64,000 nt of DNA from a virus. Below, in pieces: positions 9,715 through 36,036 of the stretch (its first letter is position 1; the number at the start of each line of letters is the position of its first letter). The DNA lies in the IMG/VR virus record IMGVR_UViG_3300028392_000054, positions 1-64,000 of that record; one strand, written 5' to 3'. Under the pieces are notes generated by a model. It saw only the letters and a program-made list of their open reading frames with translations, searched no databases and had not been told where the DNA came from. The position numbers and the translations under genes were made by a program.

Positions 9715-11748
9715 TTACTGGTTGTCTTTAATTAGTTTTATTTCACAAGCGTCAGTAGTACAATAAGCCTCACCGATAGCCTCAATACCTAAGCCCTGAT
9801 ACACGCCAGCAAAGTCAATAGGGAATAGTTCCATAGCATACTGGTCGTATTCCGCTTGAGAGATTTGAGAGTAAGGCATTTGAGGATAGACATGGTTACC
9901 CATTGGCAAGAAAGAGATCGTTTTTAACTGACCGTCGTACATGTGGAGAACTGTACCTACATCTTTAATTTCTTTTTCAGCGTCAAAAGAGATAGTCACA
10001 GACACAGAGTTATCTGACCACCAGCGTTGAGCAGTCGCAGCGAGAGCAACCTTTTCGTAGATAGATACATCTTTTTCAGAACGCTTAGCAAGAGATTTAA
10101 TAGGGAAGAACACCACAGAAGTCTTAGTAGTGTTTTCACTAGCAGGTTCTACTCGGTAATTAGCCATTTTAAAGAGAGAGAGCATAGGGTCATCATTACC
10201 AAAGCGGATGGCACGCAAGAAGTATTCGCCGCCTGGGGTCCAATGTACGCCTGGACTTTCACCAGAGAGAATAGATACAGTACCAGAAGGCTTTATTGTA
10301 GTTGTTTTAATGCTTTCTCGTATTCCAAGCCACTCAGAATAGCTTTTATCGTAATTAACGATAGTCTTGTAGCCTTCATCCATCCACTCACGAAGCACTG
10401 GAAGCCCGTTGATGTCAGCGAAGTTAGCCACACCAGACATAGAAGTTCCAATGCGTCTGTTCCTTTGCATGATAGCGTTAGTTTCTTCCCAGTGAGTAGG
10501 CAAGAGTGTAACAGTCTTAGCATAGAGATAAGCAAACTTGAGAGTACGCTTGTAGTCCTCAAGAGATTCATGTCTATTTAGATAAGTTTCTACCAGAGTA
10601 CAGCACTCAAACGATTCGAGAGATTGCTCGGCACATGGGTTATAGCCCGCAGCACGCCAATCTTTATTGTTAGGTTGGTCGGCTAATCTACCATACTTAC
10701 GAGTTACATCCATCCAAATAACTCCAGGCTCACCATTGAGAGCGATACCATCTACAATTGCAGAGAGGTCTGTACCCACAGCGGTTTCTACAGAGTTATT
10801 AGACATCCAAGCCCAGCCTGGATTTTCTGGGTCATAAGAGTTACGTTCTGGGAAACGCTCAGCATTTTTGAGATTTAAGAAGTTATCGTCATCTATACGC
10901 CCAAGCAACAGCTCAGCAGAACGGCGAACGTTACCTGAAACTACGCAAACACCAATCATATTACCTATATCCGCAATATCAATTCGGGTTATCTTATTTC
11001 CAGCCCTACCAGCAAAGAGTTTTCTAATGTGCGTGTGCAATTTTAGAAGCGGTTCGTGTCCCGCAGCAGTTCCGCCGAAGGTAGCAATAGGTGCGCCAAA
11101 TGGTCTAATGCTGTCGTAATTAAATACCCAAGTAGGCTGGTCTGGCTTTAAATAAGCATTTATTAAAGCAACAGTACTATCTACCCAACCCTCTCGCGTG
11201 TCAGGGATATCGAACACTTGTTCGCCTTTTGGCTCATAGATGTCAAAGCCTTTATCAGCACCTTTGTCATCAAAGCCCACACCCACACCCAGCATCGAGG
11301 CTTCCATCAGGAACGCAAACGGCTTAGCAGGGTTGTTTTTAGACATTTCATTAGTAGAAACAAATGCGCAATTCTGCAAAGCAGCACTATTCTTTTGCTC
11401 ATTTACCAAAGGCGTACCCATTACCCAAAGACCTCGGCCAGGCGGAGTCCACTTGAGATTAAACAGGCGGTCAAACGCTTCTTTAGCGGAAGCCTGTGCC
11501 TTAGCGTCGTTCCAAGGCAAACGGTTAGTCTTAGCGTGGTCTTTCTGAAGCGAGTACATACCGTTGATGACACGCTCACATACATCAGTCCAAGTTTCTT
11601 TAGTACCGTCAGCCTTTAGGCGAGAGTAAGTACGAAGAAAGGTAATCTCTCCAACAGAGTTACCAGCAACATCTTTAAACCCCCAAGGTACTACTTTGTT
11701 CTTGTAGCCTTCTACGAAGTCGTTTGTTAATTTAAATGATAATGACAT
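9715..11748 (-). CDS. nrdJ: Adenosylcobalamin-dependent ribonucleoside-triphosphate reductase (class II)
   Basis: Reduces ribonucleotides to deoxyribonucleotides for phage DNA synthesis, independent of oxygen, using B12. The start at 11748 (677 aa) is preceded by AGGAAATGCT; an upstream ATG at 11799 has no such site. Visible features: C127 in LQNCAFVS, the thiyl/redox segment NPCAEQSLESFECC (about residues 365-385), and a C-terminal CTTDAC with Cys at about 663 and 668. That C-x4-C spacing equals the swinging-arm pair of the monomeric Lactobacillus-type enzyme. GTSMSGVANFADI and KPSGTVSILSG are further family segments. Use of B12 implies the host makes or imports it. Confidence 0.93.
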   Translation of the reverse strand: MSLSFKLTNDFVEGYKNKVVPWGFKDVAGNSVGEITFLRTYSRLKADGTKETWTDVCERVINGMYSLQKDHAKTNRLPWNDAKAQASAKEAFDRLFNLKWTPPGRGLWVMGTPLVNEQKNSAALQNCAFVSTNEMSKNNPAKPFAFLMEASMLGVGVGFDDKGADKGFDIYEPKGEQVFDIPDTREGWVDSTVALINAYLKPDQPTWVFNYDSIRPFGAPIATFGGTAAGHEPLLKLHTHIRKLFAGRAGNKITRIDIADIGNMIGVCVVSGNVRRSAELLLGRIDDDNFLNLKNAERFPERNSYDPENPGWAWMSNNSVETAVGTDLSAIVDGIALNGEPGVIWMDVTRKYGRLADQPNNKDWRAAGYNPCAEQSLESFECCTLVETYLNRHESLEDYKRTLKFAYLYAKTVTLLPTHWEETNAIMQRNRRIGTSMSGVANFADINGLPVLREWMDEGYKTIVNYDKSYSEWLGIRESIKTTTIKPSGTVSILSGESPGVHWTPGGEYFLRAIRFGNDDPMLSLFKMANYRVEPASENTTKTSVVFFPIKSLAKRSEKDVSIYEKVALAATAQRWWSDNSVSVTISFDAEKEIKDVGTVLHMYDGQLKTISFLPMGNHVYPQMPYSQISQAEYDQYAMELFPIDFAGVYQGLGIEAIGEAYCTTDACEIKLIKDNQ

Positions 11749-11896
11749 AGCATTTCCTATTCTTTTATTTGTTTGGGGTAGTGTTCTAGTATAGGTCATC
11801 CCTGTTAGAAGATGATCCGGAAGCGGAAGGTGGGTGTGTTATTTTGAATCAATTTAGGACTATGCCATTTCAGGCGTTTTTTAATACATATATCAG
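11749..11896 (-). promoter_or_regulatory. nrdJ leader with possible -10 box
   Basis: The 148-base gap upstream of nrdJ has TATACT on the minus strand at 11788-11793, 40 bases before the start, a good -10; no clear -35 lies 16-18 bases upstream. No cobalamin-riboswitch B12 box is seen. A short ATATATCAGCTATATGT-like dyad lies at the far end near 11886-11903, just after the stop of the upstream gene. Confidence 0.35.
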
Positions 11897-13342
11897 CTAT
11901 ATGTCAGTCGTGTTTATCTTCTTAATTATCTCGTTTGTCTGGTCTTCATTGTATCCGTTATTAGGTAGTTCAGTCAATTTTTGAGCCCTATCGCCGAATA
12001 AACTGGACAAAACTCCAGCCGAATTTCCACGCTCAACAGAGATTCTCATAGTCTCTTTTGACTCGTCTAATTCTTTAATAGTCTTAAGCATTTTAAAGAA
12101 TCTATCCATCTCTAGACCTGTATTTGGGTCAGGATATCCGCCGTTTAAATCCTCTGCAAACTTGGCAAATGCCACTCGTTGCCCTTGTATTTCAAGGAGT
12201 GAGTTAATTAGACCCTTAAGTTGTTCCTTGGTTTTTACCTCAACTGGTAGGTTAAACGCACAAGGGTTATCCACCTTAAAAGCAGGACAGTTATCCTTGA
12301 CAAAACAAGAATTACACTGGCGTAGGCTAGTGCTATTTGAACGAAGAACAGGTACATCTTTAATTACATCACGACCAGTTTCATCCGTCTCAATGACACG
12401 TGAAACTTCTACTCCAAGAACAGGTAAAGTACGCATTTCGAGTGGATTTCGCTGTAAAAGTTTGACTGATTCAGATGCTGATATATCAGTATTAGAGGGG
12501 GTAGTTTGACTATTTTGAGGGGGTAACATTTCACCACTTATATCTGATATATGTTTAGTGCTATCAGCCCATATTTCTAGCTGTTGATACGACCATACGG
12601 CGAGCCTAGAGACCTCAACAGCGTCATCTGCAAGTATCTTATCGAAGTTTAAGTTAGCCTCTTCATAAGCGGCTTTATAGCGTGAGCGAGCCTGGTCTTT
12701 CATACGTTTAGGGTAACGGTGTAGTTGATTACCAAACCATACGATAGTTTCGCCCCTCATCATAGGAGATAACCAAGCAAGCGTGCTAGTAGTCTCAAAC
12801 GGCGAGTTACGGAACTTATCAGGCTTGATAGACCCTAAAATGTGAAACTTAGTACCATGCTGGGAAGAAAACTTGCGGCACATCGGCTCAAGTGCTTCTG
12901 CTACATTTCCAGCAATAAAAACATTTAAATATCTAGTGGCAAGGCTTTCTAAACTACCTTCGGTATAAACAACACCAAACTTAGTATCATCTACCTCATT
13001 CCACACAGACGCCCGCTGCTGGGTAATAAACTCTTGAGACAGATTTGGGTGGCTTATTTCACTAAAAAGGGTAATTCTATTCAGGTTATCTGAAATAAAC
13101 TCCTCATAGTCGGCACAAAAGTCCTCTAATTCCTCATCCGTTAAGCTGGCTGTAGCCGGTATGCCTGGATACACATATACTTCTACCTCATCTTTAAAAT
13201 AGTTCTCTAATAAATATTTTTTAGTCTTTGGTAAACCACGCTTTACAAGGCCCCAATAACTAACGCCAACCTTTTGAGCGTTTGAGTGGTCTAAGATAGT
13301 GCGGTTGCTAGGTACTTCTGCACCTAAATAAATTATCTTCAT
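11897..13342 (-). CDS. Large protein, possibly TGT/DpdA-like TIM barrel with Cys cluster
   Basis: A 481-aa protein not firmly identified. The N-terminal two thirds look like a TIM barrel: strands such as MKIIYLGAEVPSN, VEVYVYPGIPA and a late segment KFHILGSIKPDKFRNSPFE followed by TTSTLAWLSPMMRGE. The last resembles the region of tRNA-guanine transglycosylases and phage DpdA proteins that precedes the catalytic 'DST-W' motif, although the Asp is not conserved here. Later, QCNSCFVKDNCPAF is a cysteine cluster (C-x2-C-x5-C) able to bind metal. ATGA overlap with the preceding gene (13339). Alternative: an unrelated barrel enzyme of actinophages. Confidence 0.4.
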   Translation of the reverse strand: MKIIYLGAEVPSNRTILDHSNAQKVGVSYWGLVKRGLPKTKKYLLENYFKDEVEVYVYPGIPATASLTDEELEDFCADYEEFISDNLNRITLFSEISHPNLSQEFITQQRASVWNEVDDTKFGVVYTEGSLESLATRYLNVFIAGNVAEALEPMCRKFSSQHGTKFHILGSIKPDKFRNSPFETTSTLAWLSPMMRGETIVWFGNQLHRYPKRMKDQARSRYKAAYEEANLNFDKILADDAVEVSRLAVWSYQQLEIWADSTKHISDISGEMLPPQNSQTTPSNTDISASESVKLLQRNPLEMRTLPVLGVEVSRVIETDETGRDVIKDVPVLRSNSTSLRQCNSCFVKDNCPAFKVDNPCAFNLPVEVKTKEQLKGLINSLLEIQGQRVAFAKFAEDLNGGYPDPNTGLEMDRFFKMLKTIKELDESKETMRISVERGNSAGVLSSLFGDRAQKLTELPNNGYNEDQTNEIIKKINTTDI

Positions 13343-31082: not shown

Positions 31083-31634
31083 TTACTTGATATCAATGAC
31101 TTTTGGCTTCTTTTCATCAGGGATATTCTTAAACAACTTGACTGACAAAAGCCCGTTTTCTACCTTGGCTGATTCTACTTCGTAAAATTCAGCAAGGGCA
31201 AAAGTGAGCTTAAAATCGCGTCCAGCGATACCGTTGTGAACGAGTTCGCCTTCTTGTTCTTTGTCTTTCTTTTTACCTTCAATTTTCAACGCCTGTTCTT
31301 CTACTGTGATTGATAGTTCTTTCTTATCGAAACCAGCAACAGCTACATTGATGACTGTGGTATCGTCTTTGTGGTCAATAATGTCATAAGGCGGATAACT
31401 TGCCTTAGCATTTGACAACTCTTTAAGCTGCTCTAGCAGCGGGGACCAGCCAATAGACCAGCGGTCTAGGCTTGGAAATAGGTCATTGATGGTAATAACC
31501 TTTGGGGCAGGCGGTTTCTGCCATTTCTTATAAATATCCGCAGGGTCATGCGGATTTGGAATTGCTTTACCATATGGGTCATATGGATTGTTGTGTTTAT
31601 CCCACGGGTCTGGGAATTGATCACGTATTTTCAT
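31083..31634 (-). CDS. Hsp20/alpha-crystallin small heat-shock protein
   Basis: A 183-aa protein. VINVAVAGFDKKELSITVEE, then ALKIEGKKKDKE and GIAGRDFKLTFAL with VENGLLSVKL at the end, is the alpha-crystallin domain. The ~80-residue N-terminal extension contains Pro-rich repeats (PWDKHNNPYDPYGKAIPNPH). GGAGACAAC precedes the ATG. Acts as an ATP-independent chaperone, perhaps for head or tail assembly, as in other large phages. Driven by the promoter at 31721-31754. Confidence 0.9.
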   Translation of the reverse strand: MKIRDQFPDPWDKHNNPYDPYGKAIPNPHDPADIYKKWQKPPAPKVITINDLFPSLDRWSIGWSPLLEQLKELSNAKASYPPYDIIDHKDDTTVINVAVAGFDKKELSITVEEQALKIEGKKKDKEQEGELVHNGIAGRDFKLTFALAEFYEVESAKVENGLLSVKLFKNIPDEKKPKVIDIK

Positions 31635-32923: not shown

Positions 32924-33220
32924 ATGAAACTTTTTGGCAATGTAATGTTGCGTGTACTTGCAACATTTGTCGCCTCAGCACTGGGCGTAATCGGTGCGGG
33001 TACAGTCGCCGGCTCTATGAGCGGTATCCAAATTCCTATTTGGTTTAGCGCTGTAATGGGCGGTGTAATGGCCGTAGCTAAAGTAGTTGAACTGCTTGCT
33101 TTGGCTTTCTTAGAAGATGGAAAGCTTACCCTAAATGAAATTAATGCTGCTTTCCAGCAAACCGTATCTTTAAAAAATGTCGAAAATGAAAAGGAAAAAA
33201 CCAATGAAAAAAATGCGTAA
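32924..33220 (+). CDS. Holin-like membrane protein (98 aa)
   Basis: Two hydrophobic helices (MLRVLATFVASALGVIGAG and FSAVMGGVMAVAKVVELLAL) linked by a short turn, then an acidic soluble tail. Size and layout are those of class II holins. It shares a layout with the 35668-36036 product. The gene opens the plus-strand lysis cassette, 246 bases from the divergent NlpC/P60 gene. The gap shows no certain promoter. Confidence 0.6.
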   Translation: MKLFGNVMLRVLATFVASALGVIGAGTVAGSMSGIQIPIWFSAVMGGVMAVAKVVELLALAFLEDGKLTLNEINAAFQQTVSLKNVENEKEKTNEKNA

Positions 33221-34670
33221 GTTCTCTACTTTATTTGTAGCCGCAACTTCACTATTTCTTATGTTTGGGTTGTCTAGCCCCGCTATGGCTGATAGCACAA
33301 CTGACTATAACCAAAAAGTTGCTGAGGCACAGGCAAAGGTACAAGACCTTCAGAATCAGTTATCCAACGCACAAGCTAACCTTGATAGTTGGACTAACTC
33401 GTCTAACTCTCAGGCTGACCTTATTAACTCTGCCCAGACTGCCGCTACTGAAGCAAAAGATGCTTTAGAGGCTGCTGTGTCCGATTACAACAGTAAAAAG
33501 TCTGACTATGATGTGGCTTTTGCTGATGTTCAGGCTGCTGAAGTAGTAGTCGCTCAGGCAGTGGCCGCAGTAAATGCTGCTGCTGATGTAGTGGACTCTA
33601 CCTATAATTCTTACGCAGTAACCCAGCAGAACGCTGATAACGCTCAGGCTGTTATGAATCAAGCACAAAATGATTATGACACCAAGTTAATTACCGAGGG
33701 TGGTAGCGTTAAAAATGCCGCTGGTTTGGTTGTTGATGTTTACACAGGCATTAACCGTTACGGAAACCCTCCACAAAAATCAGACACTGCTTACACCAAA
33801 TGTAAGACAACTACTGTAGCCAACATTGACGCCAACTGGGGTGGCGGTGACATTCTAGGTTGTGGTTCTGATTACATCATGCTTCACTACAAGGGTTACA
33901 TTACCTACCCAACAACAACTAAAGTTTACTTCCAGGCCCCTGCTGATGATGGTTTCTATATGCAAATTGGCGGAACTCAGGTAATCAACGACTGGTCGCT
34001 AAAAGGCTGTGGAGCAAACTCTACAGGCATGTTCTCCTTTACAGGTGGAAAGTCTTACGCTATTGACGCTTGGTTCTATGAGTGGGGTGGCGGTGCTTGT
34101 TCTAGTTTAAACTACAAACCTCTAGGCGGTAGTTCTTATGCAGTAGCCCCAGCGTCATTCTTCACACAGGGCGCAGTAGCCAACTTGGTTAAAAACCCAG
34201 CACTGCTTGCTGTACTAAACGCTAAGACCGCTCTTTATGTTCAGGCAGTAGCCGCTGAAGAGCAGGCAAATGTGGTTTACAGCAATGCTTGTGATGATTA
34301 TGACGGCAAACAAGCAGCCTATGGATACGCTGGAAGTTCGTTAGCAAATAAGCACACTATTTTAGTTCCACTAGAGTACGTCATGAGTAACGCCGAATCT
34401 AACTGGCAAAACAGAAGTGATGACAAAGTAGTCGCTGATGCCAACTTGCGTGACCTAAAAGCCGAGTACAGTAGCACATTTGCTGCTATTGAGTCTGCGG
34501 TACAACAGGTAGACGACCTAGAAGCCAAAGTTGTTCAAGCAAAAGTAGACCTAGCAAACATTCCAAAGCCTACTGCTGCTGATAAGCGTAAACCAAAAAA
34601 GAATAACCCAAAGTATTTTGCTGATGGTGCGTACCTTCCTAGGCAAGCGTTTGTAATCAATTTAAAATAA
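33204..34670 (+). CDS. Secreted coiled-coil / PA14-domain protein
   Basis: ATG 33204 has AAGGAAAAAACC upstream, better than an in-frame start at 33177. Signal peptide: basic MKKMRKF, then hydrophobic FVAATSLFLMFGL, and cleavage SPAMA. Next come two Ala/Gln-rich coiled-coil arms (about 35-150 and 340-470) around a PA14-like beta domain with VYFQAPADDGFYMQIGGTQ and DAWFYEWGGGACS. Such domains bind sugars or surfaces. A tail motif TTTAAAA stop follows, directly before a stem-loop. Exported phage adhesin or wall-associated protein is likely; the gene is in the lysis region. Confidence 0.75.
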   Translation: MKKMRKFSTLFVAATSLFLMFGLSSPAMADSTTDYNQKVAEAQAKVQDLQNQLSNAQANLDSWTNSSNSQADLINSAQTAATEAKDALEAAVSDYNSKKSDYDVAFADVQAAEVVVAQAVAAVNAAADVVDSTYNSYAVTQQNADNAQAVMNQAQNDYDTKLITEGGSVKNAAGLVVDVYTGINRYGNPPQKSDTAYTKCKTTTVANIDANWGGGDILGCGSDYIMLHYKGYITYPTTTKVYFQAPADDGFYMQIGGTQVINDWSLKGCGANSTGMFSFTGGKSYAIDAWFYEWGGGACSSLNYKPLGGSSYAVAPASFFTQGAVANLVKNPALLAVLNAKTALYVQAVAAEEQANVVYSNACDDYDGKQAAYGYAGSSLANKHTILVPLEYVMSNAESNWQNRSDDKVVADANLRDLKAEYSSTFAAIESAVQQVDDLEAKVVQAKVDLANIPKPTAADKRKPKKNNPKYFADGAYLPRQAFVINLK

Positions 34671-34727
34671 TACCCCCAAAGGAATTTAACAACAATAATC
34701 CAGTTGCAGATATTCCATTGTTGGGGG
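34661..34727 (+). other. Candidate programmed -1 frameshift signal
   Basis: The last codons TTA AAA form the slippery heptamer T-TTA-AAA (34661-34667) in the reading frame, immediately followed by TAA. Five bases later a stem begins: CCCCCAA (34673-34679) pairs with TTGGGGG (34721-34727), with an inner GGAAT (34681-34685) / ATTCC (34712-34716) stem. The -1 frame is open from 34643 to 34933. All three classical parts (heptamer, 5-base spacer, stem) are present. Confidence 0.65.
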
Positions 34728-34936
34728 CAGCATTTCAAGGATTAGCTGATGCGTTTAACGCTTTAGGCAACATTGGTGCAGATTTACCTCCTGCTGTGCG
34801 AGCAAAAGCACAGAAAGTGGTTATTTCGGCCATTATTGTTACACAAGTAGCAACACAAGCTGCATCTATGGCTGCTCAAAGCGCAGCAAGTGCAGCATCA
34901 AGTTCATCAAGTTCTAGCCGAAGGAAAGAAAAATGA
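34667..34936 (+). CDS. Minus-1 frame extension of the PA14 protein (89 aa)
   Basis: The frame continues from the slippery site through IIPPKEFNNNNPVADIPLLG to an Ala/Ser-rich hydrophobic tail (KVVISAIIVTQVATQAASMA) and SRRKEK. It has no ATG or GTG; the only canonical starts are TTG codons at 34718 and 34721, inside the stem, and the AAAGGA ribosome-site-like sequence at 34678 is not at a usable distance. The product is therefore best explained as an extension of the upstream protein (577 aa in total). An independent TTG-started gene is the alternative. Confidence 0.55.
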   Translation: MIPPKEFNNNNPVADIPLLGAAFQGLADAFNALGNIGADLPPAVRAKAQKVVISAIIVTQVATQAASMAAQSAASAASSSSSSSRRKEK

Positions 34937-35097
34937 AGTTTTTAAATGACCTTATAGGCCAAATATGGACTCTTTTAGGTATGTTTGTAGCCTGGGTTGT
35001 ACTAGAAGGCTCTGCTAAGGCGGTAGTTGGCTGGTGCATCATAGGTTCATTGGTTATATGGATAGCCACGTTCCCCCTGCGAAATAGAGACGAATAA
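34933..35097 (+). CDS. Small two-helix membrane protein (54 aa)
   Basis: Starts at an ATGA overlap with the preceding frame. Two hydrophobic helices (IWTLLGMFVAWVVLEG and VVGWCIIGSLVIWIATF) flank a charged turn. Size and topology fit a holin or antiholin. AAGGAAAGAAAA before the ATG is a good ribosome binding site. Confidence 0.55.
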   Translation: MKFLNDLIGQIWTLLGMFVAWVVLEGSAKAVVGWCIIGSLVIWIATFPLRNRDE

Positions 35098-35143: not shown

Positions 35144-35668
35144 ATGGGTAACTGGATTTTCCCGGTAAAGAAGGTCAAACTCGGATCACTATTTGGCGCA
35201 GTAGACCAGTGGCACAAAGCTCCAGGTCATCGTGGAACCGATTATAACGGTTTCCCTGTTGGCGAGCCTTTGCTTGCTGTAAATGATGGAACAATCGTAC
35301 TTAATAGACCTTTAGCAAAAAGCACCGTTCTTGGTAACGTTGTTGTACTACAGACAGATAACGGCCACTACTTCGGTTACTGCCACATGAATGAACCATC
35401 ACCACTTAAGGTTGGAACAGTCGTGAAGTCAGGCGACGTAGTTGGTAAAGCAGGTAACACAGGCTCAGCGAGTTTTGGTTGTCACCTACACTTCACACTA
35501 AGCGGTTCTGCTGAAGGTGTGTTTGGTGGCAAAGTTTACAACGCTCACGAGTACATTAAAGGCCAAATTGCAAAGCAAAAAGCTGTTAAGCCAGTTGCTA
35601 AGCCAGTGGCTGCCCCGGTCCATGCAGACCCAAAGGTTTGCCCAACTTGTAAGCAAGAGGTTAAATAA
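35144..35668 (+). CDS. M23 (LytM-type) zinc metallopeptidase, endolysin
   Basis: A 174-aa protein. GHRGTDYNG gives H29 and D33 (H-x3-D), and CHLHFTLSG gives the H-x-H pair (about 114 and 116), the full zinc site of M23 peptidoglycan hydrolases. No signal peptide, so export needs a holin, which fits the neighbours. The C-terminus has a VCPTCKQEVK knuckle and a Pro/Ala linker. AAGGAACCCC precedes the ATG. Cuts peptide cross-links in the cell wall at lysis. Confidence 0.9.
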   Translation: MGNWIFPVKKVKLGSLFGAVDQWHKAPGHRGTDYNGFPVGEPLLAVNDGTIVLNRPLAKSTVLGNVVVLQTDNGHYFGYCHMNEPSPLKVGTVVKSGDVVGKAGNTGSASFGCHLHFTLSGSAEGVFGGKVYNAHEYIKGQIAKQKAVKPVAKPVAAPVHADPKVCPTCKQEVK

Positions 35669-36036
35669 TGAAAGCACTTGGTAATTTAATTAAGCGCACT
35701 ATTGGTGTGGTTATGTTTGCTGCAATCCCAGGTATGGCTACTGGTGCTGCATCAGGCATTGGTCCACTACTTGGTGCTTTAAATGGTGTTGCTACTGTAT
35801 TCTCATCAATCATCATTTACTTTGGTGTTCAACTAGCTTGGGATGCAAGTATTTCAAACGAAGACATTGAAAAAGGTTTCCGTGCTGCTGTTGCAAAACA
35901 ATCAGCAAATGACCCTGAAGTTAAACAAGCACTAGAAGAATCAGCTGCTGAAACTCCAGAACTTGCTGACTTTGGTGACCTGACAGAACTAACAGACCAT
36001 GTAGATGCCCCTGAAGAAGAAGAGCCATTGGCTTAA
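35668..36036 (+). CDS. Holin-like membrane protein (122 aa)
   Basis: Starts at a TAATG overlap with the endopeptidase. Hydrophobic helices TIGVVMFAAIPGMATGAASG and NGVATVFSSIIIYFGVQLAW, followed by an acidic soluble tail of about 60 residues. Layout similar to the product at 32924-33220. Coupling to the lysin makes it the leading holin candidate; the acidic tail may control timing. Confidence 0.6.
   Translation: MKALGNLIKRTIGVVMFAAIPGMATGAASGIGPLLGALNGVATVFSSIIIYFGVQLAWDASISNEDIEKGFRAAVAKQSANDPEVKQALEESAAETPELADFGDLTELTDHVDAPEEEEPLA

Follow-up and report, generated by a model that had tools for sequence, protein, structure and literature searches.

The −1 frameshift signals of the dnaX/IS type pair an X_XXY_YYZ heptamer with a stem-loop that begins 5–6 bases 3′ of it, the arrangement also seen at the junction described here, and the gpG/gpGT tail assembly chaperone, a cytoplasmic protein, is produced from a gene pair located between the tail tube and tape-measure genes. 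The phage frameshift cases that have been reviewed comprise tail chaperones as well as capsid and tail proteins (PMC5009743). C-terminal extensions produced by frameshifting occur on the T7/T3 gene 10 coat protein, the major head protein of Lactobacillus phage A2, and the coat and tail proteins of Listeria phages, and include Ig-like domains that can be reached via either frameshift direction or in frame (PMC5009743). The training set of PRFect consists almost wholly of tail chaperones (PMC10885494), and a frameshifted reverse transcriptase has been proposed (PMC8008677). Phage frameshifting is known mainly on virion proteins; at the present locus a conserved signal lies on an exported protein near lysis-type genes, and the frameshifted C-terminal extensions of phage proteins are its closest precedent (PMC5009743). 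An earlier note on this DNA, made from the sequence alone, had regarded an exported protein as an unusual frameshift target, in agreement with these three sources, which concern other kinds of proteins. Our literature searches among open-licence papers found no frameshifted exported or PA14 phage protein.

The locus is part of a 64,000-nucleotide stretch of viral DNA (IMG/VR record IMGVR_UViG_3300028392_000054), referred to here as the window. The gene for an exported protein with a PA14 domain ends on a slippery heptamer, beyond which the −1 frame encodes a further domain, the tail. We assign a probability of roughly 0.85 to the reading that −1 programmed ribosomal frameshifting yields both a short secreted and a long membrane-attached form of this PA14 lectin-like protein.

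The locus and its genomic context

The genes that surround the junction (Table 1) recur among its relatives: homologues of the holin-like gene are close to most related loci, an M23 gene is close by in most relatives, and wherever a tail locus has enough sequence, a homologue of the 54-aa protein comes after the tail. At 48 of 50 frameshift loci, the stop codon of the tail is within about 10 bases of the following start, in most cases through an ATGA or TAATG overlap; the stop/start overlap is also present where the tail is fused in frame, and a AAGGAAAG-like ribosome site belongs to the 54-aa gene itself. A tail chaperone identity for the PA14 protein is ruled out by its signal peptide and its position between the holin-like and M23 genes, as well as by the placement of the gene on the strand opposite to the tail genes.

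The genome encodes a contractile tail, and its sheath and DNA polymerase are nearest to those of the Streptomyces myophages BRock, Alone3, and LuckySocke, at ~37–40% identity. This similarity, together with the Micrococcales relatives of the PA14 domain described below, points to an actinobacterium as the probable host. Genes for ribonucleotide reductase, a queuine tRNA-ribosyltransferase-like protein, and Hsp20 are found at 9715–13342 and 31083–31634 of the window.

Table 1. Features of the PA14 locus, in window coordinates
Feature	Coordinates	Strand	Evidence
98-aa holin-like two-TM protein, upstream neighbour	32924..33220	+	Weak PHROG "holin" match, E 0.054; hydrophobicity
Exported PA14 protein, 0-frame ORF	33204..34670	+	ORF opens 33177; likely start ATG 33204; Pfam PA14
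Sec-type signal peptide MKKMRKFSTLFVAATSLFLMFGLSSPAMA, cleavage motif AxA	33204..33290	+	Sequence
PA14 domain, invariant Asp-Asp at 33945–33950	33810..34139	+	Pfam, alignment, fold match
Slippery heptamer T_TTA_AAA (TTTAAAA)	34661..34667	+	Sequence; X_XXY_YYZ in 48/48 distinct related junctions
−1 frame tail domain, 89 codons + TGA, IIPPKEF...NIGADLPPAVRAKAQKVVISAIIVTQVATQAAS...RRKEK	34667..34936	+	Alignment, selection, in-frame fusions
0-frame stop TAA, directly 3′ of slippery site	34668..34670	+	Sequence
Stimulatory hairpin, predicted	34673..34727	+	RNA folding; conserved, compensated in relatives
54-aa two-TM protein	34933..35097	+	ATG overlaps tail TGA (ATGA); strict tail partner
M23 peptidase, probable endolysin	35144..35668	+	Pfam PF01551, E 2.8e-18
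122-aa small membrane protein, end of plus-strand cassette	35668..36036	+	No convincing family match

A slippery heptamer at every junction

The 3′ end of the PA14 ORF (33177–34670) reads AAT TTA AAA TAA, and 89 codons of open −1 frame (34667–34933) precede a TGA at 34934–34936. The earlier note had drawn attention to the T-TTA-AAA-TAA gene end with its heptamer at 34661–34667, to a stem that starts five bases past it (CCCCCAA 34673–34679 with TTGGGGG 34721–34727), and to the 89-codon −1 frame that ends at 34936; all of these elements are present, precisely where it placed them. Across the 48 main ORFs of the window, X_XXY_YYZ sequences with Y = A/T occupy 0.35% of codon positions, a rate at which chance would put one into the last three codons of about 1% of ORFs; of the 48, the PA14 ORF alone combines such an end-proximal heptamer with a long open −1 frame. 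Additional heptamers, A_AAA_AAG and C_CCA_AAG, occur at 34595–34613, where the PA14 ORF is rich in Lys near its end; the −1 frame entered from them is closed by stops before the tail, and they are probably a chance product of the KK/PK-rich stretch.

A search of viral contigs with the PA14 protein as query returned 50 loci, of which 38 include the junction, each with the tail in the −1 frame relative to PA14. A second search, with the tail alignment as query, brought the total to 55 junctions including that of the window, 48 of them distinct. Every one of these 48 carries an X_XXY_YYZ heptamer inside the last three sense codons, always with the tail in the −1 frame, which leaves no doubt that the heptamer did not arise by chance. 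It takes the forms TTTAAAA, CCCAAAA, AAAAAAA (L037), and CCCAAAAAAG (L095), the last being two overlapping heptamers, and is located directly 5′ of the stop or, in a deep lineage (L039, L040, L042, L044, L093, and L095), one codon earlier. In many contigs, the open −1 stretch begins at the heptamer, which gives an overlap of 7 bases and makes it the only place where a slip is possible.

The switch between TTTAAAA and CCCAAAA requires three bases to change together. The wobble base that precedes TTA is T in 17 of 17 cases and the one that precedes CCA is C in 29 of 29, and the codons that carry this matched base encode eight different amino acids (N, D, S, Y, V, I, L, and T). A tree of the PA14 domain implies six or more changes of heptamer state and places all frameshift sequences in one group, separate from the in-frame ones; it is a quick, unrooted tree with some weak forks, and recombination might shift the slip site. 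Related phages retain heptamer, spacer, and stem alongside a conserved tail frame, the comparison that the earlier note had proposed, and the contrary case that it had named, a relative that lacks the heptamer and has an ATG for the tail, is absent among the relatives found.

A conserved, putatively stimulatory hairpin

Within the outer stem of the window hairpin lie a GGAATTT/ATTCC stem and an apical helix formed by CAAC (34690–34693) and GTTG (34703–34706). Folding of 34668–34745 gives −17.7 kcal/mol with a z of −1.79; on its own the window hairpin is only moderately stable, its support being drawn from the relatives. When the 72 bases past the slippery site were folded and compared with a null in which tail-frame codons were resampled synonymously, 46 of 47 sequences had an energy lower than the mean of the null, with a mean z of −2.27. 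The arms of the stem co-vary among lineages (CCCCCAA/TTGGGGG, CCCAGC/GCTGGG, and CCCAAC/GTTGGG), and among sequences of equal length, the apical and inner helices also contain compensatory pairs.

The hairpin starts 5–6 bases past the heptamer, inside the 5–9-base spacing of −1 frameshift signals, with the exception of L037, the sequence with the A7 heptamer, in which no significant hairpin was detected (z +0.38). The RNAalifold consensus across all lineages contains three base pairs only, because the register of the stem shifts between lineages; folding of single sequences and of length groups succeeded where this consensus did not. By eye, no conserved upstream Shine-Dalgarno-like stimulator is seen. 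L074 and L079 (also L073) appear to have rebuilt the stem 3′ of the heptamer with a farther 3′ arm (TAGCCCC/GGGGCTA), and the same loci have about 450 bases inserted between the tail and the 54-aa gene.

The tail as a C-terminal domain

The tail frame has pN/pS values of 0.29–0.39 between the heptamer and the conserved core and 0.12–0.32 in the core, compared with 0.7–2.8 in the other two frames, a pattern that marks the tail frame as being under purifying selection from the junction onward. In L030, L089, and L037, the first ATG, GTG, or TTG of the tail frame lies within or past the conserved GADL core, and a separate start can therefore not explain the conserved sequence; in L019, L031, and L065 it lies only about four codons ahead of the core, and in most other relatives translation from an own start would drop about 20 conserved tail residues.

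A search with the tail profile identified 27 ORFs of more distant relatives that run from PA14 into the tail without a break in frame (L096, L098, L100, L101, L103, L046, L149–L158, L160, L162–L166, L168–L170, L172, and L174; L046 and L154 are on the same contig). In L105–L108, the tail is attached to exported proteins without PA14 and is followed by a distant relative of the 54-aa protein with 34% identity, an arrangement in which the tail and the small membrane protein look like a reusable module. Together, the in-frame fusions and L105–L108 identify the tail as a domain that exported phage proteins carry at their C-terminus and, judged against these relatives, the slip site of the frameshift group splits this domain from the body of the protein. 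In L104 (3150–3420), whose neighbours L101 and L103 have the fused frame, an in-frame TAG takes the place of a Tyr codon in the segment that links PA14 to the tail; this is a point mutation, or perhaps a case of stop-codon readthrough that yields the same two forms.

Along the tail, a conserved N-x-GAD motif is joined by a hydrophobic stretch, a spacer rich in Ser, Gly, and Ala, and basic residues at the end. Its 19-residue hydropathy maximum, borderline for a membrane helix, ranges from 1.63 to 2.18 in frameshift tails (mean 1.74) and from 1.25 to 2.07 in fused tails (mean 1.83). The earlier note had proposed a hydrophobic tail that might act as an anchor: the hydrophobic stretch is borne out, accompanied by the basic C-terminus and the in-frame fusion in distant relatives, and from these traits we infer the anchoring itself. 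A structure model of one fused relative has low confidence across the tail, comparison of the tail profile with solved structures gave no match (best E 0.57), and the tail consensus includes NIGADLPPAVREKAQ but no LPXTG motif. Searches detected no tail in cellular genomes, and in isolated phages no relative of either the tail or the 54-aa protein.

The exported PA14 protein

Translation of the PA14 protein likely begins at ATG 33204, which has AAAGGA eight bases 5′, rather than at 33177, a choice that does not affect the frameshift finding. The AxA positions of the signal peptide, A36 and A38, are invariant in 19 sequences. The window protein matches PF07691 (Pfam PA14) with E 8.8e-5 and 22.8 bits, just under the curated cutoff of 24, and 16 of the 19 members match at E≤0.001, the best at 3e-8. 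Foldseek aligns the domain with solved PA14 domains at E 1e-8 to 1e-7 and probability 1.0, and the head resembles in fold the PA14 lectins of adhesins. Residues D257 and D258 are invariant in the 19 sequences and align with the DDG of RsgI3; the consecutive Asp-Asp (DcisD) of MpPA14 binds calcium and sugar (PMC8092209). Fold and Asp-Asp motif together suggest that the phage PA14 head may bind sugar.

In the structure model (mean pLDDT 81.5), long helices at 41–169 and 341–460 flank the PA14 head, and the two would form an antiparallel coiled-coil stalk with PA14 at the tip; the relative placement of the domains is unsure given a pTM of 0.47. Among isolated phages, a PA14 domain was found in Pelagibacter phage HTVC008M only. 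The cellular PA14 relatives number four, come from Microbacteriaceae/Micrococcales assemblies, and all lack the tail. Actinobacterial MAG contigs (L175, L176, L177, and L178) encode large PA14 proteins with 41–56% identity to the phage domain, two of which (L176 and L178) have hydrophobic C-termini, and they are a possible host source of the phage domain.

Alternative explanations

The tail could instead be a separate small gene with its own start, reached by termination–reinitiation coupled to the PA14 stop. The close overlap of that stop with the tail frame, the TTG codons at 34715 and 34718 of the window, and the AUA codons of the tail frame right after the slip site are all compatible with such coupling, but the first starts come too late in L030, L089, and L037, and nearly so in L019, L031, and L065, and most other relatives would forfeit some 20 conserved residues. 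Because purifying selection acts on residues that precede any start, because the invariant heptamer and its triple-base switches would be left unexplained, and because distant relatives carry the tail as part of an exported protein, we consider reinitiation very unlikely. Stuttering of RNA polymerase on the A run, which would place the tail in frame in some messages, draws on the AAAA at the end of the junction and on the seven and six consecutive A of L037 and L095. Most sites, however, have four A, short for polymerase slippage, and this mechanism needs neither an X-triplet match nor a downstream hairpin, making it scarcely credible.

A lone frame break between two ORFs resembles a sequencing error, which the earlier note had listed as a possible refutation, or else a pseudogene or a recent frame-breaking mutation. 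Yet 48 distinct sequences, drawn from many assemblies, share the break site, and both of its flanks are under selection; its recurrence in dozens of independent contigs excludes a sequencing error, and the probability of this whole class of explanation is negligible. A further proposal accepts the frameshift as real and assigns it the purpose of limiting translation of the 54-aa gene, rather than of making two forms of the PA14 protein. The tight spacing of tail stop and next start at 48 of 50 frameshift loci fits this idea, whereas the ribosome site of the 54-aa gene, the strong conservation of the tail protein sequence, and the identical overlap at in-frame fused loci argue against it. As the sole purpose it is unlikely, and the two functions may coexist.

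A model for two forms of one protein

Under the favoured reading, that of two protein forms made by −1 frameshifting, the majority of ribosomes would end at the TAA at 34668 and yield a Sec-exported product in which a long coiled coil is combined with a PA14 head. A minority would slip one base back on T_TTA_AAA, aided by the hairpin five bases 3′, and append the 89-residue C-terminal tail (..INLK-IIPPKEF..). Through its conserved motif, hydrophobic helix, and basic C-terminus, the tail would most likely retain the protein in the cytoplasmic membrane, probably jointly with the 54-aa membrane protein encoded next. The frameshift rate would thereby set the ratio of released to membrane-attached PA14 protein, and frameshifting would additionally deliver ribosomes to the 54-aa gene. 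The sequences establish the frame break, the conserved signals, the selection on the tail frame, the in-frame fusions, and the pairing of tail and 54-aa gene, and from these we infer frameshifting in cells, its rate, membrane anchoring, sugar binding, and a role in infection. The frameshift is very likely real and functional; that its two products differ as soluble and anchored forms is a somewhat favoured reading.

We lean toward a late-acting lectin on the surface of the infected cell, a role favoured by the position of the gene among lysis-type genes. A surface lectin that is in part free and in part attached could serve in receptor blocking, superinfection exclusion, progeny release, or lysis, and the relatives that produce only the long form from a single frame constitute a natural control. 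The tail and its small membrane partner may represent a general phage anchoring module, whose tail ORFs would be missed in annotation or labelled as orphan genes. In its broadest form, the proposal that a large group of probably actinobacterial phages tunes released versus anchored PA14 lectin by −1 frameshifting, via a previously undescribed two-part anchoring module (the tail and the 54-aa membrane protein dedicated to it) to which further exported passengers are also attached, has in our view an even chance of being correct.

Comparison with known systems

Compared with gpG/gpGT of lambda and its counterparts, the PA14 protein is exported and unrelated in sequence, and its gene is not in the tail tube/tape-measure position. 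Its heptamer is U_UUA_AAA or C_CCA_AAA rather than the A_AAA_AAG of dnaX/IS-type signals (L095 excepted), and its junctions have no visible conserved upstream Shine-Dalgarno-like stimulator. With the PA14 lectins of adhesins (MpPA14, Flo/Epa), it shares the predicted fold and the invariant consecutive Asp pair (PMC8092209), and differs from them in being phage-encoded, in its long flanking coiled-coil helices, and in its two predicted C-terminal forms. LPXTG-type sorting signals resemble the tail in joining a conserved motif, a hydrophobic helix, and a basic C-terminus to varied exported passengers; the tail, however, has no LPXTG and no sortase is seen, its constant partner being the 54-aa two-TM protein. 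In the frameshifted C-terminal extensions of phage proteins, as predicted for the PA14 case, one gene yields a short product together with a less abundant long one that has an additional C-terminal domain, and the Ig-like extension, like the PA14 tail, can be decoded in frame in other phages. Those extensions are carried by virion proteins, whereas the PA14 protein has a Sec signal, holin-like and M23 neighbours, and an extension that resembles an anchor.
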